A model generated the notes under the pieces. It was not told the DNA's origin. It was given only the letters and a program-made list of their open reading frames with translations, and ran no database searches. Position numbers and translations under genes: made by a program. This document shows, piece by piece, positions 2 to 40,350 of a DNA stretch of 40,350 bases (within the stretch, counting starts at the first letter, position 1; the number at the start of each line of letters is the position of its first letter). The stretch is from a virus, in the IMG/VR virus record IMGVR_UViG_3300030107_007143, positions 1-40,350 of that record; one strand, 5' to 3'.

Positions 2-3000
2 ACCTCTGACAGCGCCGTTATCAGTTTTGGCGCAGATGGCGATACTACGCTTACGCACACAGACGGCTCTGGCTTAACGCTGAACTCTACAAACAAAATT
101 ATGTTTAACGACGCGAGCCAGTTCATTCAAGGCTCAAGTGCCACGGTTCTGTCGCTCGGCGCAACGGATGAGATTGATCTCACGGCGACTGCGCTCGACT
201 TCAACGGCACTGTTGCTATTTCTGGTGATACGACAATAGAGGATGGTGCGGATCTTATCACCGCATCCGCTGGAACATCCAACGTCCGTGTAGGTGTCAA
301 CGCAGGTAACAGCATTACTTCTGGCGGCAACTACAACGTGGTTGTGGGCGACGAAGCGGGCACGGCTTTGACTACGGGGGATAACAACGTAGCCATTGGG
401 TTTGAAGCGTTAAGCACTGAAGATGCTGATGGGAACAATGTAGCTGTTGGCTACAGGGCGCTAAAAACTCTTAACGCTGGTGGTGATGGGAACAATGTCG
501 CTGTGGGTTACACCACAGGGCAGTCGGTAACTACAGGTCATAGCAATACGCTCCTTGGCGCACTAGCAGCAGATGCCTTAACAGAGGGCGATGAAAATGT
601 TGCAATCGGTAAACATGCCTTGGGTGGAGATACACTAGGCAATTATTCCGTAGCAATCGGTTCAGCAGCCCTAAAAGCACAAAACTTTACAACATCTACC
701 AGTGTTTACAATAATGCTATAGGTAGAGGTGCGGGTGAAGCAGTTACCACGGGGACAAACAACAATATTCATGGCGGCTTAGCTGGTGATGCCCTAACAA
801 CAGGTAGTTTTAATGTAGCAATTGGAACTAGCGCATTAAGTGCTGATACCACTGGTCAGTCTTCAATCGCAATAGGCCATCAAGCCTTACAAAGTCAAAA
901 TAATACGACTTCAGGTTTTGTGCATAACGTAGCTGTTGGACACAAAGCAGGTAATTCAATCACTTCGGGAGATCTAAACACGCTTATAGGCGGTCTCGCT
1001 GGTGATGCGCTTACATCAGGGAATAGTAATACGGCGATGGGGTATGTCGCTCTGAGCACAGATACCCTAGGGGATAGGGCGGTAGCTATCGGATACGGTG
1101 CCCTTCAAAACCAAAACTTTACAACGACCACAGACAATTACAACGTAGCCGTGGGCTACAACGCTGGTAACGACATCACCGTTGGAATACGCAACACCTT
1201 GATTGGAGGTCTTGCAGGTGATGCTTTGACCGACGCAGATAAAAATGTGGCGATAGGTTATTTAGCTTTATCGGCAGATACGTTAGGCAATACTTCTGTC
1301 GCTGTCGGCATGGGAACTCTGGAAACCCAAAACTTCACTACTGACACAAACAGTTTTAATACTGCGGTTGGGCATGAAGCGGGTAACGACATCACCACGG
1401 GAGTTCAGAATGTCCTCGTGGGCGGTTTGGCTGGTGACGCTCTGACTGATGCTGATTTTAACGTAGCTGTGGGGGTACAAGCCTTAGGTTCTGATACGCA
1501 AGGTAGTCGAAGCACTGCTCTTGGTTACTACGCTTTATTAAATCAGAACTTCACGACTGCTACGAACGCTCACAACACCGCAGTTGGGTACTTTGCAGGA
1601 GCGGCGGTCACCACGGGAGTCAACAATACACTTTTGGGCGGTCTTGCAGGTGATGCGATAACTAGCTCTTCTAATAATGTGGCAGTCGGCACAGAAGCCC
1701 TGACTTCAAACACGCTCGGTAATAGGAATGTAGCGGTCGGTAGGCAAGCATTGAACTCTATGAATGTTACGAGTCCTACAGATACGTTTAATGTGGCAGT
1801 TGGAGATAAAGCAGGCTTGTCAGTCACCACGGGCAAGGAGCACACACTCATTGGGGGTCTCGCGGGAGACGCTTTAACATCTGGTGATCGTAATGTCGCA
1901 ATTGGAACCAACGCTCTTTCTGCTGACACACAAGGCAGTAGAAATGTCGCTGTTGGCTATGATTCGTTAAAAACACAAAACTTTACGACAGGTACTAACG
2001 CCTACAATGTCGGCGTGGGCTACAACACAGGTGCGGCAATCACCACCGGAATCCAAAATTCTATTTTAGGTGCAGAATCAGGTAGCTCACTGACTACCGG
2101 TGACAGCAATGTTGCATTCGGTTATCAGTCGCTCAGAGATGACACGCTTGGATCTCATTCTGTTGCTTTAGGCGATAGAGCACTTAAATTCCAAAACTTT
2201 ACTACAGCTACCGACACTTACAATACCGCCGTTGGTTCTAGTGCAGGTCTAAACATCACCACGGGAACAGCGAATACAGCGATTGGCGGACTTGCTCTGA
2301 ACAAAGAAACCGTAGGCGCTAGTAATGTTGCAGTTGGATATGCAGCTTTATTCGATCAAGTTTCGAGTAGTGGCACGGGCACTTACAACACAGCAGTAGG
2401 GCATCTTGCAGGGGAAAATATCACTTCCGGAATACAGAACACTATCATCGGTGGTCTGGCGGGTGACTCTTTGACAGATGCAGATATGAACACTGCTGTA
2501 GGTGTCGCTGCTTTAGGCGGTGACACGTTAGGTAGCCGATCAGTAGCTATCGGTAGATCAGCACTTACTGTACAAAATTTTACTACGGCTACGGAAGTCT
2601 ACAACGTAGCCGTTGGCTATAATGCTGGAGTCTCAGTCACTTCCGGAATACAGAACACTATCATCGGTGGTCAGGCAGGTGATCAAATCACTGACGGAAA
2701 TTCTAACTGTTTCTTTGGCAAGGACGCTGGCGACACCACTACAAGCGGCAGTAAAAACATTTGCATTGGGCAGAATGCTAATAACGCATCTGGTACTGGT
2801 GATCATGCGATTGTAATTGGTCACGACATAAATGGTGATGGGAACGACTTTAGTTTCGGTAAATCATCGAACATCGTAAAGAACGATTTTGACACTGACG
2901 CTAACTGGTCGAGATCCTCTGACCAAAGACTGAAAAAGAACATAGCTGATTCAACGCTAGGGTTGTCGTTTATCAACGCTTTGCGCCCCGTGAAATACAA

Positions 3001-3277
3001 TTGGAAGCCCAGTAACGAACTTGATTCTTCAGATTCCCAGTTAGCGCACCTCTACAAAGAAAACGCTGAAGACAATGAAATGAACACAGAAGCGACGATG
3101 TATAATTTCATCGCTCAAGAAGTGAAAGCTGCGTTAGATGCAGCAGGCGTTTCGGATTTTAGCGGCTGGAGTGAGGATCAGTGGGGAGTGCAACAAGTAT
3201 CTCGCGAAATGTTCATCATGCCGTTAGTCAAAGCAGTTCAAGAATTAACGGCTCGTATTGAGGCCCTAGAATCATAG
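2..3277 (+). CDS. Tail fibre/spike with 72-aa repeats and S74 chaperone domain (5' partial)
   Basis: The frame is open to the left window edge, so the N-terminus is missing; an internal ATG at 101 is probably not the true start. Most of the protein is a repeated YadA-head-like sequence (N-x-A-x-G-Y/H...ITTG...NT-IGGLAGDALT...NVAIG...ALS-DT-G...QNFTT), suggesting a trimeric beta-rich shaft. From about residue 939 (counting the ATG at 101 as 1) the motif SSDQRLKKNI and a following helical region ending in LVKAVQELTARIEALES match the Peptidase_S74 intramolecular chaperone/auto-cleavage domain of phage fibres. In that family a Ser just before the D-x-R-x-K segment is the cleavage nucleophile. The likely role is host-receptor binding. 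The stop is followed by an excellent Shine-Dalgarno (SD) for the next gene. Confidence 0.9.
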   Translation, partial: TSDSAVISFGADGDTTLTHTDGSGLTLNSTNKIMFNDASQFIQGSSATVLSLGATDEIDLTATALDFNGTVAISGDTTIEDGADLITASAGTSNVRVGVNAGNSITSGGNYNVVVGDEAGTALTTGDNNVAIGFEALSTEDADGNNVAVGYRALKTLNAGGDGNNVAVGYTTGQSVTTGHSNTLLGALAADALTEGDENVAIGKHALGGDTLGNYSVAIGSAALKAQNFTTSTSVYNNAIGRGAGEAVTTGTNNNIHGGLAGDALTTGSFNVAIGTSALSADTTGQSSIAIGHQALQSQNNTTSGFVHNVAVGHKAGNSITSGDLNTLIGGLAGDALTSGNSNTAMGYVALSTDTLGDRAVAIGYGALQNQNFTTTTDNYNVAVGYNAGNDITVGIRNTLIGGLAGDALTDADKNVAIGYLALSADTLGNTSVAVGMGTLETQNFTTDTNSFNTAVGHEAGNDITTGVQNVLVGGLAGDALTDADFNVAVGVQALGSDTQGSRSTALGYYALLNQNFTTATNAHNTAVGYFAGAAVTTGVNNTLLGGLAGDAITSSSNNVAVGTEALTSNTLGNRNVAVGRQALNSMNVTSPTDTFNVAVGDKAGLSVTTGKEHTLIGGLAGDALTSGDRNVAIGTNALSADTQGSRNVAVGYDSLKTQNFTTGTNAYNVGVGYNTGAAITTGIQNSILGAESGSSLTTGDSNVAFGYQSLRDDTLGSHSVALGDRALKFQNFTTATDTYNTAVGSSAGLNITTGTANTAIGGLALNKETVGASNVAVGYAALFDQVSSSGTGTYNTAVGHLAGENITSGIQNTIIGGLAGDSLTDADMNTAVGVAALGGDTLGSRSVAIGRSALTVQNFTTATEVYNVAVGYNAGVSVTSGIQNTIIGGQAGDQITDGNSNCFFGKDAGDTTTSGSKNICIGQNANNASGTGDHAIVIGHDINGDGNDFSFGKSSNIVKNDFDTDANWSRSSDQRLKKNIADSTLGLSFINALRPVKYNWKPSNELDSSDSQLAHLYKENAEDNEMNTEATMYNFIAQEVKAALDAAGVSDFSGWSEDQWGVQQVSREMFIMPLVKAVQELTARIEALES
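280..2790 (+). repeat. About eleven 216-bp (72-aa) tandem coding repeats in the tail fibre
   Basis: Successive units start at N-x-A-V-G followed by variants of GYNAGNDITTG, then GGLAGDALT, then NVAIG, then QNFTT. Two central units can be aligned residue for residue at exactly 72 aa. Eleven GxxAGxxITTG-type starts are countable between about 490 and 2610, with degenerate units at both ends. The nucleotide sequence differs at many synonymous sites, so the copies are old and held together by protein-level selection. Confidence 0.85.
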
Positions 3278-19362: not shown

Positions 19363-20057
19363 TGGCTTATCTACAATCGAACATCCCGTATTTCAAATGC
19401 TGGGTGCGGAAAGAGTACACGCATAATCACGAGCAATACCATGGTGAGTTTTTGCACGCTATGGCAATTGCCGTCACAACCATGCCAACTCGGTGCTTGA
19501 GCTTCCAAGTTATTTTCACCGGAGCTGAATGCGAAGACGACGAGCCAAACGTCCATGGCGGCGCTATGTGGGCACGGATGCCCATAACAGCGTTAGCGGG
19601 AGACACAGATTATGAGGGTTGGCCTGACCCCATGCCGGTTTGGGCCGCACAGCCATGGGATTGCTCATCTCATCATCATGCCGTTTATGTGCTCGATCGT
19701 TGCACCCCGTGCCCCTGGATTGCAAAAATTGATGGTGAATTTTATCCGGCCAAATATCTGTTCACGGTTGACTACGCGGAGAACGAGATAGCCGACGACC
19801 CTGCCCAGCACAAACAATCGCATGTAATGCAATTGTTAGAAGCAGGTGACTGGACGGGCAACATCGTCGCCCTTCCAAATAACAGAGTCCGAGTGACGCA
19901 CCCCGCATGGTTCTCGGTTGGCGAGGGAGCCCCGGATTTTCGACCTAGTCAGCACATTCACTACAGCAAGAGCGATCTTGACTACACTTTAGATGTGAAT
20001 AAGGTGTTCGATAACCTTTATGCCCCAGAGAAGAAGAATGGCAACAAGCGGAAGTAA
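19362..20057 (+). CDS. Conserved virion-region protein, 231 aa
   Basis: The start is GTG, 1 bp overlap with the preceding stop. The protein is rich in His, Cys and Trp (EYTHNHEQYHGEFLHAMAIA, GGAMWARMPI, WDCSSHHHAVYVLDRCTPCP, FTVDYAENEIADDPAQHKQS). The look is of a folded metal-binding or head-neck protein. I recall the N-terminal 'R-x-E-Y-THNH...F-x-Y...H-G' pattern from marine phage genomes without function. The C-terminus overlaps the next gene's start by 20 bp. Confidence 0.72.
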   Translation: MAYLQSNIPYFKCWVRKEYTHNHEQYHGEFLHAMAIAVTTMPTRCLSFQVIFTGAECEDDEPNVHGGAMWARMPITALAGDTDYEGWPDPMPVWAAQPWDCSSHHHAVYVLDRCTPCPWIAKIDGEFYPAKYLFTVDYAENEIADDPAQHKQSHVMQLLEAGDWTGNIVALPNNRVRVTHPAWFSVGEGAPDFRPSQHIHYSKSDLDYTLDVNKVFDNLYAPEKKNGNKRK

Positions 20058-20733
20058 GGATTTCGAACTAGATGTAGCAGATTACATCGAGGAAGCTTTT
20101 GAGCGTTGCGGGCTGGAGCTCCGCACAGGGTACGACTTGAAAAGTGCCACACGGTCGCTGAATCTCATGCTAGCCGAATGGTCAAACCGGGGGTTGAACC
20201 AATGGACAGTCGCACAAAAAACTATTTCGATGGTGAAAGACACCACCGAATATACAATTGATTCTACAAATCCTACAGCGACGATTGACGTTCTAGACGT
20301 TTTCATACGTGAAACGATAGGCGGTCAAACGACAGACGTGCCCCTCAGCAGAATGTCTCGTGCCGAGTATGCGCACATTTCAACAAAAACGAGCACTGGT
20401 AAGCCGAACCAATTTTTGGTTCAGAAAAAACTTTCGCCAACGGTGACTGTGTGGCCGGCGCCAGATAAAAACAGTACGTATACTATCCACCTCAATGTCC
20501 TGTCTCGTATGGACGATGCGGACGTTGGCGTCGATACGCTTGAAATACCCTTCCGATTTTTTCCCTGCCTTGCGGCGGGTCTAGCATATTATTTGGCTTT
20601 GAAGCGCGCTCCTGAGAAAGTACAAATGTTGAAGGCGCTGTATGAAGAGGAGTTCGATAGAGCCTTATCACAAGACGAGGAGCGGGCGAGCTTTCGCGTT
20701 GCGCCAGATTTGCGTAATTATAACATCGCCTAA
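20038..20733 (+). CDS. Head-tail connector/tail accessory protein (P22 gp4-like)
   Basis: ATG 20038 is preferred over ATG 20020 because AGAGAAGAAG precedes it and the product then starts MATSGSKDFELDVADYIEEA. Then come ERCGLELRTGYDLKSATRSL and NLMLAEWSNRGLNQWTVAQK, a pattern typical of podovirus head-completion/tail accessory proteins following the portal. A beta region with VTVWPAPDKNSTYTIHLNVL and a C-terminal helix (YYLALKRAPEKVQMLKALYEE) complete it. It would bind the portal and seal packaged DNA. Confidence 0.8.
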   Translation: MATSGSKDFELDVADYIEEAFERCGLELRTGYDLKSATRSLNLMLAEWSNRGLNQWTVAQKTISMVKDTTEYTIDSTNPTATIDVLDVFIRETIGGQTTDVPLSRMSRAEYAHISTKTSTGKPNQFLVQKKLSPTVTVWPAPDKNSTYTIHLNVLSRMDDADVGVDTLEIPFRFFPCLAAGLAYYLALKRAPEKVQMLKALYEEEFDRALSQDEERASFRVAPDLRNYNIA

Positions 20734-20735
20734 TT

Positions 20736-21059
20736 ATGGCTTTCTCTAGCAACAAGAACGCTTATGGGATTTGCGATATCACGGGGTTTCGATATCGCTT
20801 GCGTGATATGAAAAAGACCTGGAACGGTCTATTGGTGGGCCCGGATCAATGGTCACCGAAGCACCCCCAGCTGATGAAAAAGCCTACTCCGATTGATCCG
20901 CAAGCGCTGAAAGAAGCCAGGCCAGACCCCTCTTCCGATGGCGAGGATAATAAATTTTTCAGTGTTTACACTAACGTCGGAAGTGGTAAATTAGGTACAA
21001 CTTTGCAAACTTTTGCAATTACAGCCGGCGTTGGAACCGTGGAGATCACCATCACATGA
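20736..21059 (+). CDS. Conserved virion-region protein, 107 aa
   Basis: N-terminal YGICDITGFRYRLRDMKKTW, then GLLVGPDQWSPKHPQL, forms a small knuckle. In related proteins I recall, Cys pairs are sometimes present here (C-D-x-C-GF-Y, V-C-P-E-C), suggesting a zinc knuckle that has lost ligands in this copy. The C-terminus is Thr/Gly-rich (LQTFAITAGVGTVEITIT). Ends in a 4-bp ATGA overlap with the next gene. Confidence 0.72.
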   Translation: MAFSSNKNAYGICDITGFRYRLRDMKKTWNGLLVGPDQWSPKHPQLMKKPTPIDPQALKEARPDPSSDGEDNKFFSVYTNVGSGKLGTTLQTFAITAGVGTVEITIT

Positions 21060-30433: not shown

Positions 30434-32992
30434 ATGGCTATACCTCTACCAGATGATTTTTCAACGTACGAACCGTCCGATCGACAACAGCCTTTGCCAG
30501 CAAATGTAGAGGACAGTTTCGAGAAGGGTTTAGGGGCTCGGGTACAAGAAGCACTTGGAAACGTCGTGTCTTACCCAGGCAAAATTTTTGCGGCTGCAAC
30601 AGGTGCAGACGCACCGATACAGTTTCCAGAGTTGCCCGAGCTTACAGATATGCCCGGTGCTGACATGCCATCTTTTTTCAGACGATTGATGCCGAACATC
30701 AAGGCAATGCTGACCAGTGATGACTTGGGCAAGGCCGAAATATTCGAAGCCTCATTTGGTGACGATGAAAAATTTGGCGGCGTGTTCGTAGACGATTTCG
30801 GACTGCCTATCGTTTTTTGGAACGATGTGCCGTATTACGTTAACAAGCCTGGTTTCAGCGAACAGGATTTCAGCACGTTTCTTGGAGAAGTAGCGAAGTA
30901 TTCACCAGCCAGCCGTTTCGTTGGAGGGGCGAAAACAGTTACCGGCACAGCAGCGAGGGGCGCGGTTGCTTATCCAACGACAGAAGCCACGCTGCGGGCG
31001 GGTGAAGCGTTGGTCACGCCAAAAACAGTCGCAGCTCGTGATGAGGCGCCTTCAGAGGTTGTTGGAGACATCGCTACTTTGGCGCTTCAAGACGTAGCGA
31101 TAGATTATACTTTGCCAAAAGTTTTGAAGGTTGCCGGAAAAACAATCGAGACAGCTGCCGACAAAGGCGGAGACATTACCAAAAAACTGGTTGAGCGAGC
31201 AGGCAAATATAATCCTTTCCCCCGGATCACTCCCGAGCAGATCAACAAATCTCGCTTTCCGTTGACGCTGGGACAAAGATACAGCCCAATACAAGATCCC
31301 AGAGCGAAAGATTTTACCCCACAACTAGCGACCGAAGATTTGATTAGATTCGGTAACGCCGATACGACCGCTCAGGAAACGCTTAAGCAGTTCGATCGAG
31401 ACCAAATGGAGATGATTGAGTCTGCAGCGAGAGACCTGCAAAACGAACTTGGTGTCGGCGTAGTGGCAGAAAACTACTATCAAGTTCCGGCCGAAGCAGG
31501 AGCTGAGATCCAGAAAATTGTCTCAGATTTAGCAGCAGACAAAAACGAACAATCGCAGCTCATATATGACGCGTTGAAACAAGCGCAGGACGAAAGCAAG
31601 CCGCGGTTTGGGCCTGAAGCGATTAAACGAATTACTCAAAACATGATGGATTATGTGACCATCGATGAGGGGATTTACCCTTCGCTGCTCAATCAGAACG
31701 ACCAGTTGAAACCTGTTTTCGACATGCTCAAAAAAATCAATCGGCAAGCGACAGGACGCAAAAACTTCCCCGAGCAAACAATCGACCAAATATCTCGTTT
31801 TCGAGACAACCTAGGATACAAAATCGGGAACGCTCAAGGCTCAGATAAGCGCATTCTGACCCAGCTGAAAACAAGATTAGACGAAGGCATCGACGAAGCG
31901 ATTACAGCGGGTTTGGTTAGCGGTGATACCAAATTTATAGACGATCTACGCCAGGCCGGAAAATTATATAGCGAATACAACGCGTTGTCGGGTGGGCGAC
32001 CCATCGCTGCTTTACGTAAGTTGCCAGACGCAGAAAAGGCGGTGCAAAAGGGGCTTAGGACCTTAGCCAACACAGAATACGACACACTCGAAGTGCTGAA
32101 TCTGTTGTTCGGCAAAAATTTATTGCAGCCACGCAAACACATGGGCCTGCTGATTGATGAGTTGCAAAAGATTTTGCCAGAGGACGAAATGACTCGAGTT
32201 CGCGGACTGTTGCGAGATGGTGTGCTTACTCGGGCCTTCGCCGGCACAGGCGGCAAGATCTCGCGCCTTTCCATAGCGAAAAATTTCGACGAGGTGTTCA
32301 CCAAACAGAAAGACATTATCGAACGATTATTTACCGCTGATGAAATTAAAAAGGTCAAAGATCTCAAAAACGATGTGTTACCCACATTAGCCGCGGAGCT
32401 AAGAAAAAACCCTAGCGCTACTGGTTATATCATTCAGGGTTTCCTTCAGCAGCTAGGGCTACACTCTGTGCCACAATTTGGTTTGACGCCAGACGCCCGA
32501 GTAGCTCGAGCTTTGTTGGAGGAAAGTGCCGAGCAACTGAGCGCAAGAAAACAAAAAGGTTTTGTTGCCGATATCATTCGCGGAAAAATAACAGAGATGA
32601 GAAGTCCTCTGTTTTCAGAAGATGCTCGAGCCACTATTTTGGGAAATCTCACCGCCGAAGACGTGACACAGGCCGCTCTTCGACCTCAACTCCGCGAAGA
32701 CGAGGAAGAACAAGAGGAGGCGGGCCGGAGAGCTTTTCGTCCTCTCAGTCAGGAGCAAAGACGGCAGATCCGCAGACCCGATCGTGCGACTCAGGATCTA
32801 AGACAAAGGATCCGAGACATCCAGGATATGCAAGCAGATGCAAGTGCTACACCAGGTTTTTTCGAACCGTTGCCAGTGACTACAGCACCAGCTCAAGCAA
32901 CTCCTTCTGCAGCTTTGTCGCCAACGATACTGCCGAGCGATCAAGATAGGGAGCTCGCCGCTAGGCAAGCAGGCATAGGCGCGTTGATTTAG
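30434..32992 (+). CDS. Large internal virion/ejection-type protein, 852 aa
   Basis: Starts 2 bp after the previous stop. The N-terminal third has a Pro-rich region and FGGVFVDDFGLPIVFWNDVP. From about 240 on it is mostly charged helices (RDQMEMIESAARDLQNELGV, QIQKIVSDLAADKNEQ-like). The C-terminal 150 residues are Arg/Glu-rich then disordered, ending DRELAARQAGIGALI. It ends tail-to-tail with a minus-strand gene, their stop codons overlapping. Likely an internal-core/ejection protein by size and place. Confidence 0.72.
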   Translation: MAIPLPDDFSTYEPSDRQQPLPANVEDSFEKGLGARVQEALGNVVSYPGKIFAAATGADAPIQFPELPELTDMPGADMPSFFRRLMPNIKAMLTSDDLGKAEIFEASFGDDEKFGGVFVDDFGLPIVFWNDVPYYVNKPGFSEQDFSTFLGEVAKYSPASRFVGGAKTVTGTAARGAVAYPTTEATLRAGEALVTPKTVAARDEAPSEVVGDIATLALQDVAIDYTLPKVLKVAGKTIETAADKGGDITKKLVERAGKYNPFPRITPEQINKSRFPLTLGQRYSPIQDPRAKDFTPQLATEDLIRFGNADTTAQETLKQFDRDQMEMIESAARDLQNELGVGVVAENYYQVPAEAGAEIQKIVSDLAADKNEQSQLIYDALKQAQDESKPRFGPEAIKRITQNMMDYVTIDEGIYPSLLNQNDQLKPVFDMLKKINRQATGRKNFPEQTIDQISRFRDNLGYKIGNAQGSDKRILTQLKTRLDEGIDEAITAGLVSGDTKFIDDLRQAGKLYSEYNALSGGRPIAALRKLPDAEKAVQKGLRTLANTEYDTLEVLNLLFGKNLLQPRKHMGLLIDELQKILPEDEMTRVRGLLRDGVLTRAFAGTGGKISRLSIAKNFDEVFTKQKDIIERLFTADEIKKVKDLKNDVLPTLAAELRKNPSATGYIIQGFLQQLGLHSVPQFGLTPDARVARALLEESAEQLSARKQKGFVADIIRGKITEMRSPLFSEDARATILGNLTAEDVTQAALRPQLREDEEEQEEAGRRAFRPLSQEQRRQIRRPDRATQDLRQRIRDIQDMQADASATPGFFEPLPVTTAPAQATPSAALSPTILPSDQDRELAARQAGIGALI

Positions 32993-33234
32993 GCCTCTAT
33001 CACCCCGTCGACGTCACGCGCCACAATCATGGCGCCTTCGACGTTGTACTCGAAATCATAACCCATCAGGACTTCCCCCTGAGATTCGATCAACAGGTTA
33101 CGACTGAGCAGTCTTAATAACGCGCATTGCTGATGCAGTGTCATGCGCGTAAATAGGTCCAAAACCTCTGTCGCCTCGAGGACGGGCCGATAACTAGCAG
33201 GCACTTGCTGCGTTTTTTTTGCAAATAGCTTCAT
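32989..33234 (-). CDS. Partner protein of RHH regulator, 81 aa
   Basis: On the minus strand, ATG 33234 overlaps the stop of the upstream RHH gene (ATGA), so this start is preferred over an in-frame codon at 33270. The product is MKLFAKKTQQVPASYRPVLE, then VLDLFTRMTLHQQCALLRLL and a C-terminal EGAMIVARDVDGVIEA. Not recognised. The two-gene order (small DNA binder then small partner) resembles regulator or toxin-antitoxin operons, but no toxin fold is evident. Its TAA overlaps the stop of the 852-aa gene. Confidence 0.65.
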   Translation of the reverse strand: MKLFAKKTQQVPASYRPVLEATEVLDLFTRMTLHQQCALLRLLSRNLLIESQGEVLMGYDFEYNVEGAMIVARDVDGVIEA

Positions 33235-33431
33235 CGATGAATACGGCCTTCCTGCACCAAGCGCTCCCATTCACGATTTATCAGCATACGTACCTGGGCG
33301 ATTTTTGAGCGCTCACCCTCGGCACAGAGCTGCTTCAGTCGATCAAACGTAACCTGGTCAACTGCCAAACTCCTTCGCAATCTTGGGTCTTCAGTTTCAG
33401 CAACAGCGGTGTCTGGGGTGGTCCATTCCAT
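33231..33431 (-). CDS. Ribbon-helix-helix DNA-binding regulator (Arc/CopG-like)
   Basis: The 66-aa protein has a disordered N-terminus (TTPDTAVAETEDP). A short strand (RRSLAVD) and two helices (QVTFDRLKQLCAEGERS, KIAQVRMLINREWERLVQEG) follow. Strand-helix-helix of this size, with I-A-x-x-R-M-LI-x-RE-W, is the RHH pattern of Arc/CopG-type repressors. RHH dimers insert the strand in the DNA major groove. It is divergent from the 33487 gene, with a short region containing a palindrome in between. Likely a regulator of this junction or of the repeated promoters to the right. Confidence 0.75.
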   Translation of the reverse strand: MEWTTPDTAVAETEDPRLRRSLAVDQVTFDRLKQLCAEGERSKIAQVRMLINREWERLVQEGRIHR

Positions 33432-33450
33432 ACGCTATCTCAAAAAATTT

Positions 33451-33492
33451 GTTATATTGTGCCAACTTTAGCATATTTTTATACAAATGTAT
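33451..33492. promoter_or_regulatory. Divergent AT-rich promoter/operator region
   Basis: The rightward strand holds TTGTGC (33457-33462), a 17-nt spacer and TATACA (33480-33485). The palindrome ATACA-AA-TGTAT (33481-33492) covers this -10 and the ATG of the 33487 gene. Leftward, TATAAC lies at 33456-33451 with no clear -35. An autoregulatory operator for the RHH protein is plausible. Start-site use is unresolved because the predicted transcript would begin near or inside the ATG. Confidence 0.5.
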
Positions 33493-34203
33493 CAACTCAA
33501 AAACTACCTGCTAAGCATGCGCTCGCACTGGATGATCAACCAATCTTTGTATGAAGCGGTCCAGGAGTCGATGCCAGATATTGCTAAATTCAGAGCATCA
33601 CAAGGACAGCTCGATTTGAAGAAGACCGCGGTTCAGGACCATGTGCAAAAGATTTTCCCGGACATTTACCGCGTCCCGCTTTTTCGCCGTTCTTTCTGCA
33701 AGATGCTGGTAGAAGAAATTGGTCACATGCGACAAGAGATACCTTTCGAGCCCAATCCGGGAGAGGACAAATTAAGGCAAATTCCAGAAATCGTTTTGGC
33801 AGAGCACGTTCCTGAGTTGCAGCGAAGTATGTGGTTTGTGGTCAAGAATGTTTTGAACCCCATTTTTTGGGCGTTGTACCAACGCAACTGCGCGGACGTA
33901 GGATCTATTCAAATAGCAAATTACAACTTGCAGGACAAAAAACAGGGCGCTTGGCATCACGATTCAAGCGCTGACATCTCAGTTGTGGTGCCTTTGAACA
34001 CAGGGGAGTACGAGGGCGGGGGAACAGAATTCCACCAGTGGGGAACGTTAAATCCATTGCCCAGCGGCCATGCCTTGATTTTTCCTAGCTTCACAAATCT
34101 TCATCGCGGGCTCCCGGTCTTTTCGGGCGACAGGTTACTCCTGGTCTTCTGGCTTTACGATCGAGCTCGAGTGGTAGACAACGCAGAACTTTGGTTCGAA
34201 TAA
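33487..34203 (+). CDS. 2OG-Fe(II) oxygenase (prolyl-4-hydroxylase-like)
   Basis: The 238-aa protein has the full facial triad: GAWHHDSSADIS with H157-x-D159, then GGGTEFHQWG, the distal H206 in SFTNLHRGLPVFSGDRLLLV, and R216 for 2OG binding. The order and the 'VVPLN...EGGGTEF...P-x-G-x-ALIFPS...H-RG' layout are classic for P4H/PKHD-type oxygenases. Substrate is unknown. It is the second such enzyme in the window and only superficially like the one at 3736. ATG 33487 is at the very edge of the promoter; Met11 is an alternative start. Confidence 0.88.
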   Translation: MYQLKNYLLSMRSHWMINQSLYEAVQESMPDIAKFRASQGQLDLKKTAVQDHVQKIFPDIYRVPLFRRSFCKMLVEEIGHMRQEIPFEPNPGEDKLRQIPEIVLAEHVPELQRSMWFVVKNVLNPIFWALYQRNCADVGSIQIANYNLQDKKQGAWHHDSSADISVVVPLNTGEYEGGGTEFHQWGTLNPLPSGHALIFPSFTNLHRGLPVFSGDRLLLVFWLYDRARVVDNAELWFE

Positions 34204-34204
34204 T

Positions 34205-34246
34205 TTGTACAAAAAAGTATACATCGACACGCGAATGGGTATAATA
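34205..34246 (+). promoter_or_regulatory. Repeated phage promoter, copy A
   Basis: GTATAC (34217-34222), 17-nt spacer, TATAAT (34240-34245). CGACACG lies in the spacer at 34225-34231, exactly 15 nt upstream of the -10. Upstream is the palindrome TTTGTACAAA. Downstream comes GCGCCAACAACAACGGAAA with an SD for the gene at 34267. Matches copies B and C. Confidence 0.8.
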
Positions 34247-34266
34247 AGCGCCAACAACAACGGAAA

Positions 34267-35100
34267 ATGATGATGCAAGATTTACAAAAACTGGTTCAAA
34301 CCGTAGCTTCCCGCATCGAACAGTTTGACGCCAGATCCGCGGCAGCCAGGGCCGCGCGAGACGAGCGGCTAAGAAAAAACGCTGAAGCGAACGGCGACCT
34401 CGCACCCACACTCAGCGCAGCCGGCATGCATGCGCCTTGCGACAACTATCATTGGGAATGGTGCCTCTACAACGCTGACGGTGAAATCCAAGACGTTCGC
34501 GAAGGTGAATTTATGGCCGGAGAGTTCTTACCCTGGAGCAAGGAAATCGATCTTTTTTGCCGCGATTACGCAGAAAAGCGAACGGGCTTCCCTTTGCGCC
34601 GGGTCACTTACATCCCGGTTGAACGAGCCGATACAGTTATCGAAGCGCTTTCAGGCGTTGTTCACATACACACCGGGAAGCCTTTCGAGGATCGCGATGG
34701 CGAGCACCTTGTCTACGTCTACATCGATGAGCGATGCAAAGACGTCGCCGACGCTATCGCGTCTTACCTCGAGGCCCCCAGGGTGGCAGCTGCTGCGGCT
34801 CAACGAGCTGCTGAACAGGCCAAGCTGGACGCCGCCGAGCCTTGCCCAACCGGGCGAATCGCAATCACGGGTAAAATTCTCGGTATCAAGCTGCAAGAGG
34901 GTTATTACGGAAACACCTGGAAGATGCTGGTAGAGGACGATCGTGGGTTCAAAGTTTGGGGGACTATCCCTAGCAATTTGAACGTAGGGCGAGGCGACCG
35001 CGTGACGTTCACCGCAGCAATAGAGCCATCGAAAGACGATGACAAATTTGGTTTTTTCAAGCGGCCTACCAAGGCTGCACATTTAGAGGAGGCCGCGTAA
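34267..35100 (+). CDS. OB-fold protein, possible ssDNA-binding role, 277 aa
   Basis: Three consecutive ATGs (34267, 34270, 34273) follow GGAAA. The N-terminal part is helical (AAARAARDERLRKNAEANGD). A middle domain contains DNYHWEWCLYNADGE and YVYIDERCKDVADAIAS. The C-terminal 90 residues, GRIAITGKILGIKLQEGYYG, then NTWKMLVEDDRGFKVWGTIP and GDRVTFTAAIEPSKDDDKFG, look like an OB fold seen in many phage/plasmid proteins. The last codons and stop lie in a GGCCGC-GTAA-GCGGCC hairpin. First gene of promoter A's operon. Confidence 0.72.
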   Translation: MMMQDLQKLVQTVASRIEQFDARSAAARAARDERLRKNAEANGDLAPTLSAAGMHAPCDNYHWEWCLYNADGEIQDVREGEFMAGEFLPWSKEIDLFCRDYAEKRTGFPLRRVTYIPVERADTVIEALSGVVHIHTGKPFEDRDGEHLVYVYIDERCKDVADAIASYLEAPRVAAAAAQRAAEQAKLDAAEPCPTGRIAITGKILGIKLQEGYYGNTWKMLVEDDRGFKVWGTIPSNLNVGRGDRVTFTAAIEPSKDDDKFGFFKRPTKAAHLEEAA

Positions 35101-35107
35101 GCGGCCC
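35088..35107. repeat. 20-bp palindromic repeat across a stop codon, copy 1
   Basis: GGAGGCCGCGTAAGCGGCCC; the core GGCCGC-GTAA-GCGGCC is a perfect 6-bp stem with a GTAA loop containing the TAA. The same 20 bp occur at 37622-37641. The next SD (AGGAGA) follows immediately, so the hairpin could affect coupling or mRNA stability. Confidence 0.85.
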
Positions 35108-35120
35108 AGGAGACAACGAC

Positions 35121-35312
35121 ATGGACGATTTTTTGGCAACAGGTATAGCAGAGGGCTTCTTGCCTGCGGACAGTGACGATCAAGTGATTGAGGCTTGGCA
35201 GCACCTGGTCGACACTGGGTTAGCTTGGCGTTTACAAGGGTGGTTCGGGCGCACCGCGGTCGACCTCATAAAGGCGGGAGTGATAGCCCCCGTATCGTCT
35301 GGAGAAGACTAG
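35121..35312 (+). CDS. Small conserved protein, 63 aa
   Basis: SD AGGAGA before the ATG. The sequence EGFLPADSDDQVIEAWQHLV, then DTGLAWRLQGWFGRTAVDLI matches a small family (DUF7417-like, name uncertain; the 'AWQ-LVDTGLAWRLQGWFGRTA' core is highly recognisable). It occurs in phages and mobile elements. Function is unknown. Adjacent to the OB-fold gene in one transcript. Confidence 0.8.
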   Translation: MDDFLATGIAEGFLPADSDDQVIEAWQHLVDTGLAWRLQGWFGRTAVDLIKAGVIAPVSSGED

Positions 35313-35564
35313 ATGGCGAAACTTATTGGCAGACCGGTGTTCCAAGTCACTCGACACGCAACAGGCAAAAATGATCGACGTGTCCATGTGCTAACTTGTG
35401 TTGCCCAAGGCGTCATTACTAAACGTCGGGCGCAATCGGACGCCCATGAGGTGTTCATACAGAGCGTTTGCGATAGTTTGCGGGGTTGGGTGCCGACAGC
35501 GGATGTCGGTACTCTAGAGGACTTCCACCATCATCGAAAAAAAACATGGTATTTGCGTAAATAA
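35313..35564 (+). CDS. Hypothetical basic protein, 83 aa
   Basis: Abuts the preceding stop. The product has VFQVTRHATGKNDRRVHVLT, then a helical middle and SLRGWVPTADVGTLEDFHHH with a C-terminal RKKTWYLRK. No family recognised. Directly followed by promoter B. Confidence 0.65.
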   Translation: MAKLIGRPVFQVTRHATGKNDRRVHVLTCVAQGVITKRRAQSDAHEVFIQSVCDSLRGWVPTADVGTLEDFHHHRKKTWYLRK

Positions 35565-35565
35565 A

Positions 35566-35606
35566 TGCGTAAAAATGTATACATCGACACGCAAATGCGT
35601 ATAATT
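35566..35606 (+). promoter_or_regulatory. Repeated phage promoter, copy B
   Basis: GTATAC (35577-35582), 17-nt spacer, TATAAT (35600-35605), CGACACG at 35585-35591. A 5-bp hairpin TTGGG/CCCAA (35614-35629) lies in the leader, then AAGGAAAAAG as SD for the gene at 35651. Confidence 0.8.
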
Positions 35607-35650
35607 GGCCGTGTTGGGGCTGATCCCAATCAACAAAAAAGGAAAAAGTG

Positions 35651-36223
35651 ATGAAAGAGAAAATTCAAAAACTAGGAAATTTGACCAAAGCGGAGCTGAT
35701 CAGACGGGTTCACCTCGCTGAGGCTTTCGAAGAAAGTAATAAGGCAAAGCTCGAGCGCATCAACTCTTTTGAAAACCAGATACGTTTCCTGCAGAAGGAG
35801 AACGAGTCGCTGCGCAAGGAGGTAGGCGAACTTGAGGCGCAAGATCCCCAACACGCCGAGACGTATCAAGTCGCGCACAAAGACATTGCCGGGTATCAGG
35901 GCTATTCAGAAGCGGCCATCAAGATATACACGCACACTGACCAGCCTGAGGATGGCGAGAAGCGTATCGCAACGATCAACATTCCTCATTTGGTTGATTC
36001 GTATCGAACGCATAGATCGATCGCAAGACAGTCTGAGGAAGCGGACACTGATTTTGATGCAGAGGCTTTGGAGGCCCTTGAGCGTGCTGAGACGCGGAAA
36101 CAACGTGAGCGTCTTTTTGAGATTCAAGATTTGTTGGGTGTGTTTTTCGAAAGGGCGGGCGGTTACGGTGACGAAGGATACGTAGGCGTCAAAGTCGAAC
36201 TGCGCAACAACTACAACGGGTAA
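35651..36223 (+). CDS. Coiled-coil hypothetical protein, 190 aa
   Basis: ATG 35651 (after GTG 35648) is at good distance from AAGG. N-terminal coiled coil (EESNKAKLERINSFENQIRF, LQKENESLRKEVGELEAQ) to about residue 75. A globular part contains IAGYQGYSEAAIKIYTHTDQ and IATINIPHLVD. The C-terminus is YGDEGYVGVKVELRNNYNG. Early-gene position. Function is unknown. Confidence 0.7.
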   Translation: MKEKIQKLGNLTKAELIRRVHLAEAFEESNKAKLERINSFENQIRFLQKENESLRKEVGELEAQDPQHAETYQVAHKDIAGYQGYSEAAIKIYTHTDQPEDGEKRIATINIPHLVDSYRTHRSIARQSEEADTDFDAEALEALERAETRKQRERLFEIQDLLGVFFERAGGYGDEGYVGVKVELRNNYNG

Positions 36224-36231
36224 GGGAGAAG

Positions 36232-36705
36232 ATGATGAGTGCATATTTAGTAAACACGGACCACATAGCTGAGATCGTAAAGTTTGCCCACAACAACAAG
36301 TTCAATCACGCTTACAATTGTTCGACCAAAAGCTCAATCGACACCGATCCCGAAAAATTGGTCGCACTGTTAGCCCAGGCAAACATAGACAGCCTGGTTG
36401 CCAGGTACGACGAAAACCCAAGCGACTTCAATGGGTTTATCGAACAGTGCTTGTCAAACCTAAAGCACAGCACAGACGGTTTCAGTCAAAGCTTGCTTAG
36501 TGGCGTCGGATGCTGCCAGCTTGGAGCCGACGATATCTACAACATGATCAAGTGCTGGGAGTATCAGTCTTGCGAGGTCGATAACTGGTTTGAGACAGAC
36601 GCTTATTGGGTGAGTGTCTACCTCAAAGACATAGCCGCAAGGAAGCTGGCTGAGAATGCCAAGGTCCAGTGGGAGTTTGTAAACAAAAGGGTTGAAGCGT
36701 CATGA
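36232..36705 (+). CDS. Conserved phage/mobile-element protein, 157 aa
   Basis: Two ATGs (36232 and 36235) follow GGGAGAAG; the second has better SD spacing. N-terminal SAYLVNTDHIAEIVKFAHNN is the recognisable start of a family common in phages and plasmids. Later parts hold ARYDENPSDFNGFIEQ, CWEYQSCEVDNWFETDAYWV and a helical end (ARKLAENAKVQWEF). Function is unknown. ATGA overlap with next gene. Confidence 0.75.
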   Translation: MMSAYLVNTDHIAEIVKFAHNNKFNHAYNCSTKSSIDTDPEKLVALLAQANIDSLVARYDENPSDFNGFIEQCLSNLKHSTDGFSQSLLSGVGCCQLGADDIYNMIKCWEYQSCEVDNWFETDAYWVSVYLKDIAARKLAENAKVQWEFVNKRVEAS

Positions 36706-37043
36706 GACTTTTCGACTTCACTTACGACAAACTTGTAATCGCTTGGTGCGCGGACACAAAAAAGTGGAGCGTGACTGGTGTGAAAGAGCCCTACTCTGAT
36801 GAAATCTTGGGTTGGCATAAAACTAGAGACGCAGCGACCATCGCCGCCAAAGAGTTCGCGTTTGCCCCTGACTTCGAAAGCCACCAGGCTTTTAAGGTGC
36901 AAGTTTTGGGAAAGCGCGGTCAGTTAATTCACTCGGACACGATCCCGAGCTGGGACCATAAACACTGGTTCGACCGGCTGAGTGCAGAAAAACAAGACCG
37001 GTGGCTTTACGCGCCTAATTTATCGCAACGATATCGGTTGTGA
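36702..37043 (+). CDS. Hypothetical protein, 113 aa
   Basis: ATGA overlap with the preceding gene. Sequence FDFTYDKLVIAWCADTKKWS, then a Trp/His-rich C-terminal part (SWDHKHWFDRLSAEKQ, RWLYAPNLSQRYRL). No family recognised. Last gene before promoter C. Confidence 0.65.
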   Translation: MRLFDFTYDKLVIAWCADTKKWSVTGVKEPYSDEILGWHKTRDAATIAAKEFAFAPDFESHQAFKVQVLGKRGQLIHSDTIPSWDHKHWFDRLSAEKQDRWLYAPNLSQRYRL

Positions 37044-37065
37044 GTCCTGAAATTATCAAAATAAA

Positions 37066-37107
37066 TTTTGTAAAAAGCTATACAACGACACGGTAATTTG
37101 TATAATA
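37066..37107 (+). promoter_or_regulatory. Repeated phage promoter, copy C
   Basis: CTATAC (37078-37083), 17-nt spacer, TATAAT (37101-37106), CGACACG at 37086-37092. Leader GTGCCATCAACAACGAAGGA is close to that of copy A and supplies the SD for 37137. Confidence 0.8.
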
Positions 37108-37136
37108 GGTGCCATCAACAACGAAGGAACCACACC

Positions 37137-37634
37137 ATGAACACAGACATCAAGATTGGCGACAAGGTACGCAGCTTTGATTTTGCAGCACATCGAGACA
37201 TCGAAGGCCCAGACGCTTGCTTTGCAGAGGGAGTTGTCGAGGGATTTCAAACCATCGGCTGCACTCGATTCGATATTCGAGTTACCCGCGCTGTTTGGGA
37301 GGGTAAAGAAGTGCCAACGGAGGAAGGTGCGCGGATTGCTCCGCCGCTCAACGGTACGCCCACCAACATGGGCCGCATCACTGACGGCGTGGTCAAGATC
37401 GAAGAGGCTGAGCCAGCCAATCAAATTGGCGACATGGATCTCAGCAATCTGACTGAAGAGCAGCTTGACGTGATTCGCACTCTCGCTTTAGCAGCCGAAG
37501 AGCATTTCGACAGGCTGGGTCGAGACAGCGAGTTTGCTCCGAAGGCAGATCGCGCAAACAGGGCTTCGATACAGGCTTTCAAACTAATTGGCCGCATTCG
37601 GAGAGAAAAAGAAACAAGAACGGAGGCCGCGTAA
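37137..37634 (+). CDS. Conserved hypothetical protein, 165 aa
   Basis: ATG 37137 with GAAGGA upstream is preferred to ATG 37098, which lies inside the promoter. Sequence IKIGDKVRSFDFAAHRDIEG, then DACFAEGVVEGFQ and CTRFDIRVTRAVWEGKEV, PPLNGTPTNMGRITDGVVKI. The first half resembles a small SH3-like beta barrel of the kind I recall in cyanophage/plasmid proteins. The C-terminal half is a basic helix (LTEEQLDVIRTLALAAEEHF). The stop sits in palindrome copy 2. Confidence 0.72.
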   Translation: MNTDIKIGDKVRSFDFAAHRDIEGPDACFAEGVVEGFQTIGCTRFDIRVTRAVWEGKEVPTEEGARIAPPLNGTPTNMGRITDGVVKIEEAEPANQIGDMDLSNLTEEQLDVIRTLALAAEEHFDRLGRDSEFAPKADRANRASIQAFKLIGRIRREKETRTEAA

Positions 37635-38917: not shown

Positions 38918-39671
38918 CAAACTCTACCGGTTCATCTAAACCAAACGGGCGCAGCGTGTTCGCACCGCGGGCCTCAAGGCCCCGAGCTAACGCCTGTTCA
39001 TTCTTTGCATGGCCGTACTCAATCGCGTCATCACTCAGCGTATATACAGCATATGGGTACGGGTGCGCTTTCGCCTGCGCCAAGAAGTAAAACTTCGCTG
39101 CCGGCAGTCCCACAGACTCGCAGGCGGCCAGGTAGAACGCTGCTTGTTGATAGTACCGAAATGAGTTAACTGCAGCCCTGAAGCCCCTAGGGGACGCGTC
39201 GCGGCAGGTTTTGAGGTCCCAGACATCTGTCCCGGTATACCAGTCAAGCTTTGCTTTGCAAGGCTCACCACACCAGACAAAACATAAAGTCAGCTCAACT
39301 CGGTGGTTCTCTTGTGGAATGTATTCCGCAACCACCTCCCGTCGCTCCATGCAAAGGTCGTACAGGTCTTGTTTGCAGGGGGTGCGATCGTCCAGGCCTT
39401 CTAACCATTTGGCGTATTCCTCCTTCCCAACCTTTGTGCGCCGATCGACCGCGGGCTCTATGGCAAACTCCTCAAAAAACTTCTCGTGTTCCAAAAACAC
39501 GGTGTGCTGCACTCTGCCCTCGAGCAACGCTGGCGTTTCTTTCATCGGCGCTTGATGCCTCCAGGTGTAAGGACACTCAATCAAAGTCGTCAAATCGTGC
39601 GAGCGCCATGCCGGTATGCTCGCGTACGTGGGGTAATCTAACCCGTCATAAATTCCAGGCTCAAAATCCAT
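38898..39671 (-). CDS. RecE/exonuclease VIII-like PD-(D/E)XK nuclease
   Basis: The 257-aa protein has PDDEXK features in order: SIPAWRSHDLTTLIECPYTW (N-terminal substrate region), EGRVQHTVFLEHE with His56, CKAKLDWYTG with Asp143, VWDLKTCRDAS with D152-L-K154, and FRYYQQAAFYLAA with the late Tyr/Gln helix. This is the layout of the PDDEXK_12/RecE family (DUF3799-type), which degrades dsDNA ends 5'-3' in phage recombination. No RecT annealing partner is visible in the window. SD TAGGAG lies in the preceding peptide gene's end. Confidence 0.88.
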   Translation of the reverse strand: MDFEPGIYDGLDYPTYASIPAWRSHDLTTLIECPYTWRHQAPMKETPALLEGRVQHTVFLEHEKFFEEFAIEPAVDRRTKVGKEEYAKWLEGLDDRTPCKQDLYDLCMERREVVAEYIPQENHRVELTLCFVWCGEPCKAKLDWYTGTDVWDLKTCRDASPRGFRAAVNSFRYYQQAAFYLAACESVGLPAAKFYFLAQAKAHPYPYAVYTLSDDAIEYGHAKNEQALARGLEARGANTLRPFGLDEPVEFDASALY

Positions 39672-39679
39672 GCGCTCTC

Positions 39680-39772
39680 CTACGCTATTTTACTGAGGAC
39701 CAAGGCAGTCAGATATATGGCGGCTATAAGGCTTATGCCCATAACGATGCCCTGGGTGATTTCATTTTTCAT
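39680..39772 (-). CDS. Tiny single-TM peptide, 30 aa
   Basis: ATG at 39772; stop TAG (39682-39680) overlaps the SD of the exonuclease gene. The peptide is MKNEITQGIVMGISLIAAIY plus LTALVLSKIA: a short polar N-terminus and one hydrophobic helix. SD upstream is weak. Reality is supported mainly by placement between coupled genes. Function is unknown. Confidence 0.5.
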   Translation of the reverse strand: MKNEITQGIVMGISLIAAIYLTALVLSKIA

Positions 39773-39953
39773 GGGAAAAGGTCCCGCCTGCGGCCGCCCG
39801 GACGGGAACGGGCCTAGGGAAACCCGGGGAAAGGATACGAAACCCCAAGCTTTGGCCTGTTGGTCCCGTCTGGTAGGTCACGCGGACGGGCACACGTTGG
39901 AACGCCGTGATGAAGGGCGCGACCTGTTCAAAAGAAGGCGAAACCGACACCAC
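39762..39953 (-). CDS. Possible small ORF, 63 aa (weak)
   Basis: A GTG-initiated frame fills the otherwise empty 39773-39927 stretch. It overlaps both flanking peptide genes by short distances (its TGA overlaps the ATG region of the 39772 gene). Sequence contains QRVPVRVTYQTGPTGQSLGF and PGFPRPVPVRAAAGGTF, Pro/Arg-rich. No SD or family. The stretch also has GC-rich repeats (GTCCCG/CGGGAC) that could be an RNA structure instead. Confidence 0.3.
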   Translation of the reverse strand: MVSVSPSFEQVAPFITAFQRVPVRVTYQTGPTGQSLGFRILSPGFPRPVPVRAAAGGTFSHEK

Positions 39954-40020
39954 AAAGCATGCCTAGCCCAAACGCTATGAGTAGCGCAACGCTTGTGTAT
40001 TGCGGCACCTTCCAAGCCAT
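39928..40020 (-). CDS. Tiny single-TM peptide, 30 aa
   Basis: ATG 40020 begins 7 nt after the DUF3310 gene's stop. MAWKVPQYTS is followed by VALLIAFGLGMLCGVGFAFF, a clear membrane helix with one Cys. A longer version from ATG 40113 would overlap the DUF3310 gene by 86 bp; AGGGA upstream makes it possible but less likely. Function is unknown. Confidence 0.5.
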   Translation of the reverse strand: MAWKVPQYTSVALLIAFGLGMLCGVGFAFF

Positions 40021-40027
40021 AAAACCA

Positions 40028-40285
40028 TCATTTTTGTTGATCCTTGCGAGGATCGTCGCCGCTCGAGTATCGTAAATACCAAACTGCTTTGGCTTTGTCT
40101 TGCTCTGCATCATCTTTTTTTCCCTGTCGCCATAAATATTTGAACGCTGCAATCTCAGCGTACTCCTCAACCCGCTGCAAGCCAAACGCTGCGACCATCG
40201 CATCTATGCACTCTAGCTCCCCCGAAACGTAATGTTTCGGGCTGTTAACTAGGTCCTCTTTTTTCGGTCTTCCTCGTTTTGCCAT
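40028..40285 (-). CDS. DUF3310 family protein (T7 gp1.7-like nucleotide kinase family)
   Basis: ATG 40285 preceded by AGAGG. 85 aa: MAKRGRPKKEDLVNSPKHYV, then GELECIDAMVAAFG, EYAEIAAFKYLWRQGKKDDA and EQDKAKAVWYLRYSS. The 'PKHY...G-x-x-E-C-I-D-A...EYA...A-FKYLWR-G-K-D...D-x-x-KA-WYL' pattern defines DUF3310, related to phage nucleotide kinase gp1.7. It lies directly downstream of ssb in the leftward replication operon. Confidence 0.85.
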   Translation of the reverse strand: MAKRGRPKKEDLVNSPKHYVSGELECIDAMVAAFGLQRVEEYAEIAAFKYLWRQGKKDDAEQDKAKAVWYLRYSSGDDPRKDQQK

Positions 40286-40293
40286 AGCTGCCT

Positions 40294-40350
40294 CTAAAAC
40301 GGTATGTCGTCTTCGAAATCGTCATCCGCGGCCGCTACTGCTGCGGCAGG
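40294..40350 (-). CDS. ssb: Single-stranded DNA-binding protein, C-terminal fragment
   Basis: A minus-strand frame enters from the window edge and ends at TAG 40296-40294. The last 18 residues read PAAAVAAADDDFEDDIPF. The acidic -D-D-I-P-F ending is the hallmark C-terminal tip of bacterial/phage SSB, which recruits replication and recombination proteins. Only the tail is in the window. SSB followed by DUF3310 and a RecE-like nuclease defines a replication/recombination operon. Confidence 0.75.
   Translation of the reverse strand, partial: PAAAVAAADDDFEDDIPF

Follow-up and report, generated by a model that had tools for sequence, protein, structure and literature searches.

Are the near-identical promoters that recur along one phage genome simply strong promoters, or do they place the genes behind them under a common control? 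The question is raised by the IMG/VR virus record IMGVR_UViG_3300030107_007143, the first 40,350 bases of which (of 52,088) were analysed and are referred to here as the window. Three promoter modules in this window, copies A, B and C, carry the sequence CGACACG between their -35 and -10 positions. With modest confidence, we favour the view that A, B and C are all copies of a single composite promoter-operator, which recurs across a phage family and through which a phage regulator, most likely a small ribbon-helix-helix (RHH) protein, controls a regulon of accessory genes together with a recombinase operon.

Promoter modules in the window

As the initial annotation described, the pattern (G/C)TATAC-N17-TATAAT can be read from the sequence at 34217-34245, 35577-35605 and 37078-37106, and CGACACG starts exactly 15 nt ahead of TATAAT in all three copies (34225/34240, 35585/35600 and 37086/37101). 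The leader GCCA-x-CAACAACG is common to copies A and C. The further claim that the module is confined to these places in the window was examined with a position matrix derived from other phages (124 sites, none of them from this record), and it holds. Copies A, B and C score 35.2, 31.5 and 33.0 bits, respectively, the next-best site in the window reaches 5.3 bits, and the top score in 15 Markov-simulated windows is at most 9.5 bits. The full module is far beyond chance in the window. Because CGACACG by itself is not enriched (5 occurrences in the window versus 5.2 expected by chance), the claim rests on the whole module; the pattern STATAC-N17-TATAAT, with up to 2 mismatches, is mildly enriched (5 versus 1.8 expected). 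A fourth copy of the module lies beyond the window at 49966 (+) of the parent record and has a degenerate divergent partner near 49938 (-). These two sites precede the small gene c32 and a serine recombinase gene.

Conservation extends about 12 bp upstream of the motif first described, where it forms a TTGTRYAA box. CGACACG itself forms the last part of a longer core, ACAWCGACACGG. Since the family consensus is longer, the 29-bp motif of the initial annotation corresponds to the downstream two thirds of the element. Module A (34199-34245, +) is made up of the upstream box TTGTACAA (34205-34212), GTATAC at the -35 position (34217-34222), CGACACG (34225-34231) and TATAAT (34240-34245). The corresponding parts of module B (35559-35605, +) are a weak upstream box, ATGCGTAA (35565-35572), GTATAC (35577-35582), CGACACG (35585-35591) and TATAAT (35600-35605), while those of module C (37060-37106, +) are the upstream box TTTTGTAA (37066-37073), CTATAC (37078-37083), CGACACG (37086-37092) and TATAAT (37101-37106). 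All three modules are assigned from sequence and matrix score, and module A additionally from an orthologous promoter in 10 of 14 relatives.

A promoter class shared by a phage family

The search of related phages for the 29-bp motif that the initial annotation called for uncovered a large promoter class, comprising 128 sites after deduplication. The exact module pattern occurs in 17 IMG/VR contigs. Relaxed patterns, which omit the -10 and allow the TTGCAC form, return 93 and at least 120 stretches, in which true sites in AT-rich intergenic DNA are mixed with chance matches inside genes. The spacing between the -35 and the -10 is 16, 17 or 18 bp at 20, 54 and 11 sites, respectively; a -10 was scored at 96 deduplicated sites, and these three spacings account for 85 of them. 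A peak at 17±1 bp is ordinary sigma70 geometry, and by this spacing the modules are sigma70-type promoters, in keeping with the promoter reading of the initial annotation. The consensus of the class is TTGTRYAA-N4-TTGYACA(A/T)CGACACGG...TATAAT, so that the conserved element overlaps the -35. The -35 position is occupied by TTGCAC in the larger class and by GTATAC or GTGTAC in the class found in the window, GTATAC being a minority variant of TTGCAC.

Fifteen large motif-bearing records have one syntenic core genome, with genes for terminase, portal, capsid, tail proteins, a 2OG-Fe(II) oxygenase, an exonuclease, a VapE-like primase and a recombinase. As this core is common to all 15, the records are considered to be one family of uncultivated, tailed phages; the genes were called mechanically, and not all records are complete. 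Each record holds 1-6 sites, mostly with a matched -10. The nearest isolates by terminase (TerL) are 023Pt_psg01, HTVC027P, HTVC023P and DSL-LC04 (57-61% identity), none of which has a site better than E = 0.3, and the paper on the HTVC027P transcriptome reports no promoter motif. A blastn search with 34.0-37.7 kb of the window gave no match among 50,697 phage genomes, and the 41-nt consensus gave weak partial matches only, at about 30 bits. An origin of the element from a host operator was also considered and rejected, as the 21-base pattern of the GT variant has 4 chance-like matches in 84,980 bacterial and archaeal genomes.

The sites have three main locations: directly behind the 2OG oxygenase gene, where copies A-C lie; at the divergent promoters that precede the recombinase operon; and downstream of the capsid gene (MCP), where the site drives an inserted gene. 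Core genes are rare directly behind a site: they make up 4 of the 43 first genes, compared with 393 of 909 open reading frames (43%) overall (Fisher p = 4e-6), and all four belong to the c32/recombinase operon. In the other 39 cases the first gene is accessory, and one regulatory sequence stands before several unrelated accessory genes per genome. Antirestriction proteins with ArdC-N and zincin (MPTase) domains are encoded behind sites in G020 and G021 (E 1e-27 and 1e-41), and other targets in relatives include a SNF2 helicase, a weak SprT-like match and an HD-domain protein. The ArdC-N and zincin genes lie directly under the shared promoter in these tailed phages (G020 19820-20794, L302; G021 39305-40339, L283).

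The initial annotation had named loss of the box from relatives that keep the gene as evidence that would count against the module, and this was examined for the gene behind copy A. The gene was found in 24 contigs, 14 of which have enough upstream sequence, and the box is present in 10 of these 14, three times as TTGCACATAGACACGG. In three of the others the gene is part of an operon, and in the last, L252, it follows a different promoter, TTGTCTCTACCACACAAGTAGGTATAAT, which occurs twice in that contig in slightly different form. The copy-A gene sits at varying places in the genome, and its own promoter copy is kept in most such records; in several relatives it follows the capsid gene, with the same promoter there. 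A different phage with this gene (G052, L403) carries a promoter of its own, which is duplicated and contains AGACAAC/GTTGTCT inverted repeats; the GCCATCAAC leader is the same.

Concerted changes of the box

Further insight into the function of the box comes from family members in which it differs. In G050 (L399/L400), which offers a natural example of a switched operator, all seven sites found end in CC, reading CGACA(C/T)CC instead of CGACACGG; most have the form CGACACCC, two are CGACATCC and one is CAACACCC. The CC-ending variant was absent from 15 other records in the same low-threshold scan. In the G064/G066 clade, the same genome places hold TTGYAA boxes at 10-bp steps (TTGCAA repeats) and lack CGACAC. 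The -10 is retained while the box changes genome-wide. Because dispersed sites change together in each genome and the -10 is kept, it is likely that a trans-acting factor acts at the box, in line with the activator or repressor that had been envisaged there. The G050 contig ends before the RHH locus, and the relatives found through its exonuclease lack CGACACCC.

Candidate regulators

The gene at 33231-33431 (-) encodes a 66-aa RHH (Arc-like) protein, the candidate trans-acting regulator. The gene is present in 12 of 13 records in which the region before the 2OG oxygenase gene was read and is always divergent from the latter. In its AlphaFold2 (AF2) model, helices at residues 26-38 and 43-60 follow a strand segment, giving a beta-alpha-alpha fold. 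The top Foldseek matches include MazE4, Arc, CopG, MatP and PutA, all of which are RHH proteins, with weak E-values, and 10 of 20 members match phrog_3180 (Arc-like repressor; best 3.3e-5).

The regions upstream of the RHH gene are enriched in TTGYRYAA half-sites. With up to one mismatch, 21 non-redundant upstream regions contain 44 half-sites, compared with 13.1±3.5 in shuffles, and exact TTGYRYAA occurs 13 times, compared with 1.2. These half-sites are often 10 or 20 bp apart. In the window, half-sites at 33457-33464 and 33479-33486 lie in the divergent intergenic region between the RHH and 2OG oxygenase genes (33432-33486), the proposed autoregulatory operator. Between -47 and -28, the promoters are built from this half-site too, and this sharing is circumstantial evidence, at the level of sequence, that the RHH protein may regulate both its own gene and the regulon. 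The suggestion that this protein binds CGACACG is retained in part: it is the best candidate for the regulator, and its link to the promoters runs through the TTGYRYAA half-sites and not through CGACACG. A 93-aa protein, encoded directly behind the RHH gene and overlapping it (32989-33270, -), is conserved in most of the family and belongs to no known family.

The second regulator candidate, and putatively the best lead for the reader of CGACACGG, is c32, a 78-aa protein encoded under the recombinase promoter, whose gene lies at 50017-50253 of the parent record. Among recombinase loci collected irrespective of the motif, 24 have both c32 and CGACAC, 37 have neither, 5 have c32 only and 1 has the motif only; this single record carries c32 elsewhere. 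Since the loci that lack c32 essentially represent a single clade, the link is a lead and not proof. Searches of c32 found no Pfam or PHROG family, no meaningful fold match and no recognisable DNA-binding fold. The sister clade L392-L398 (G064, G066 and G063) has no c32 gene upstream of the recombinase.

Proposed mechanism and alternatives

In the favoured model, the -35 and -10, at a spacing of about 17 bp, would be read by host RNA polymerase carrying the main sigma factor, while a phage-encoded DNA-binding protein would recognise the element overlapping the -35, from about -47 to -20. As the recognised element is common to them, all copies of the module would be controlled together. The RHH protein, encoded just upstream, would bind the TTGYRYAA half-sites at the promoters as well as the tandem 10-bp repeats before its own gene. 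On incoming naked DNA the sigma70-type promoter would fire and give early expression; the RHH protein would then accumulate, bind across the -35, shut the regulon and repress itself, comparable to what has been proposed for Aca-type regulators (PMC11065993). CGACACGG may be contacted by the same complex as a third site, or it may be bound by a second factor, for which c32 is the candidate. The regulon would consist of accessory genes (moron-type, host-takeover or counter-defence) and the recombinase operon. It is tentatively possible that the switch has two factors, in which the RHH protein reads TTGYRYAA family-wide and c32 reads the clade-specific CGACACGG in the spacer, the two jointly timing a counter-defence regulon. 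In that case the box would point to counter-defence genes not yet characterised, throughout these uncultured phages.

Several observations weigh against control by the RHH protein. The gene was not found upstream of the 2OG oxygenase gene in the motif-bearing record G004, and CGACACG does not occur upstream of the RHH gene. The TTG boxes of the promoters are 12 bp apart, compared with 10 (or 20) bp upstream of the RHH gene, and the DNA-contact strand of the protein, RKSLAVD, is identical in G064, whose promoters lack CGACACG. It is this identity that makes the RHH protein an unlikely reader of CGACACG, and together with the 12-bp step and the absence of CGACACG upstream of the RHH gene it suggests that CGACACG may need another reader. 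No palindromic covariation was found between the half-sites within a promoter. Moreover, the similarity of sites within a genome may partly reflect promoter modules copied along with their genes, although the unlike flanks of the G050 sites count against copying alone.

Four other explanations of the modules were considered. They could be plain strong promoters of the T4 early type, favoured by host RNA polymerase or a host factor and subject to no phage regulator. The sigma70-type spacing, an AT-rich upstream region resembling an UP element and the failure to find a phage sigma region-4 domain in 10 records are all consistent with this. It is nevertheless unlikely, as the best-conserved part, CGACACGG, sits in the spacer, which sigma70 reads little, the box changes genome-wide while the -10 is kept, and the 21-base element pattern has only 4 chance-like matches in the 84,980 bacterial and archaeal genomes. 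The poor -35 of the GTATAC variant, which also speaks against plain strong promoters, is what would be expected if a phage protein (c32 or RHH) lying across -47 to -20 recruited the polymerase. Lambda CII and T4 MotA are the models for such activator-dependent promoters with a weak -35, and CII sites overlap the -35 as the element does here. The co-occurrence of c32 with CGACAC points in the same direction, but that association amounts essentially to one split between two clades, and c32 lacks a recognisable DNA-binding fold. In addition, the -10 often comes close to a perfect TATAAT and the -35 reads TTGCAC in many copies, and dependence on an activator is considered rather unlikely.

The modules might instead be operators of lysogeny and immunity, where a prophage-state repressor silences the promoters in the manner of Rep of the cluster A mycobacteriophages. 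In keeping with this, the divergent promoters that precede the serine recombinase (Resolvase domain, 3e-27) carry sites, and genomes have several sites, whose sequence differs from lineage to lineage as that of stoperators does (PMC6550527). The sites are few, however (1-6 per record), lie nearly always at promoters and do not occur in the late and replication operons, which would have to be silenced for immunity. Scanning of the 84,980 species genomes with one variant pattern recognised no integrated copy, and this explanation is improbable. A long, conserved and asymmetric element would also suit a phage-encoded single-subunit polymerase of the T7 type or an alternative sigma factor, and CGACACG superficially resembles a T7-class specificity sequence. 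The TATAAT-like -10 with the spacing tolerance of sigma70 argues against both. No sigma region 4 was found in 10 records and no PF00940 match either, the latter with a control set that likewise gave no match and was uninformative. Promoters of this kind are very improbable.

Relation to known regulatory systems

Individual aspects of the element are reminiscent of well-studied phage regulators. Arc and Mnt of P22 are small RHH phage proteins that act at or near their own promoter, with tandem half-sites about one helical turn apart, and they control one locus. A small RHH phage protein with half-sites at its own promoter is likewise predicted here, and it differs from Arc and Mnt in that multiple dispersed accessory promoters carry the sites. 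In the promoters activated by lambda CII, TTGC-N6-TTGC flanks the -35; the element similarly has a pair of TTG(C) boxes, spaced by about one turn of the helix, that overlap the -35. In contrast to the CII promoters, the step is 12 bp, the second box is the -35 itself and there is an extra CGACACGG box. No CII homologue was identified.

The closest analogy is with archaeal viruses (SIRV2 and relatives), in which a conserved regulatory sequence marks early accessory and anti-defence genes and Aca8 is the proposed regulator (PMC11065993). Both systems place a promoter-operator that varies between lineages before many unrelated small accessory genes, including anti-defence genes, and in both a small DNA-binding protein is proposed to repress after early expression (PMC11065993). 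The archaeal viruses use promoters with TATA and B recognition elements (BRE) and a winged helix-turn-helix (wHTH) regulator, whereas a bacterial sigma70-type promoter and an RHH candidate are found here, and here the operator overlaps the -35 and a spacer box is added (PMC11065993). Early timing was measured in the archaeal viruses and would be presumed for this phage family (PMC11065993).

Cluster A mycobacteriophages have lineage-specific sets of operators and stoperators that act with Rep (PMC6550527). Similar to these, the sites here are asymmetric, oriented and several per genome, and have a genome-specific consensus that in cluster A changes with the repressor (PMC6550527). In cluster A, 20-30 sites lie mostly off promoters and block elongation, and Rep is a helix-turn-helix (HTH) immunity repressor; the 1-6 sites per record here are tied to a -10 and are not classed as stoperators (PMC6550527).

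The element, its composite layout and the phage family are novel; that a shared regulatory sequence marks accessory genes is an established idea. By analogy, the system would be a phage accessory-gene regulon comparable to the anti-defence regulons of archaeal viruses. Through the box, accessory genes that are unrelated and of unknown function, dozens of them across this uncultivated family, would come under a single control circuit. As ArdC-type antirestriction proteins are among the targets, it could be used for picking counter-defence candidates, as in archaeal viruses. Furthermore, the versions of the box (CGACACGG, CGACACCC and TTGCAA repeats), together with the regulator sequences, form a natural data set for the study of co-change between regulator and site.

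Genes and leaders around the modules

The accessory region under the modules begins directly after the core 2OG-Fe(II) oxygenase family gene (33487-34203, +). The first gene behind module A (34267-35100, +) encodes a 277-aa protein of the phrog_4750 family. Module B is followed by a gene for a coiled-coil-like protein of 190 aa, counted from ATG (35651-36223, +), and then by one for a 157-aa protein of cluster c54 (36232-36705, +), which is also found behind a site in G012. The first gene behind module C (37137-37634, +) encodes 165 aa. The first genes of modules B and C were not found in any of the other 14 large records. No function was recognised for the first genes of the three modules, nor was any known anti-defence gene recognised among them.

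The conserved serine recombinase lies next to a conserved structural gene rich in repeats and a gene for a tail fibre of the S74 type (G000 50226-51038 and 51200-51775; window 101-3277), and it is possibly a tail-fibre invertase rather than an integrase.

The transcripts are expected to begin with one of two classes of leader. Leader A (34250-34266, +) is of the GCCAACAACAACG type, which is also present in copy C and in many relatives, and leader C (37111-37123, +) is of the GCCATCAACAACG type. Leader B (35613-35630, +) has a 5' hairpin of the UUGGGGCUGAUCCCAA type and represents the family's other class. Strong hairpins (-8 kcal/mol or below) occur at the presumed mRNA 5' end in 28 of 121 leaders, with varying stem sequences. 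Examples from related sites include L202, L126, L136 and L072, and the hairpin of copy B in the window is weaker (-7.1 kcal/mol).

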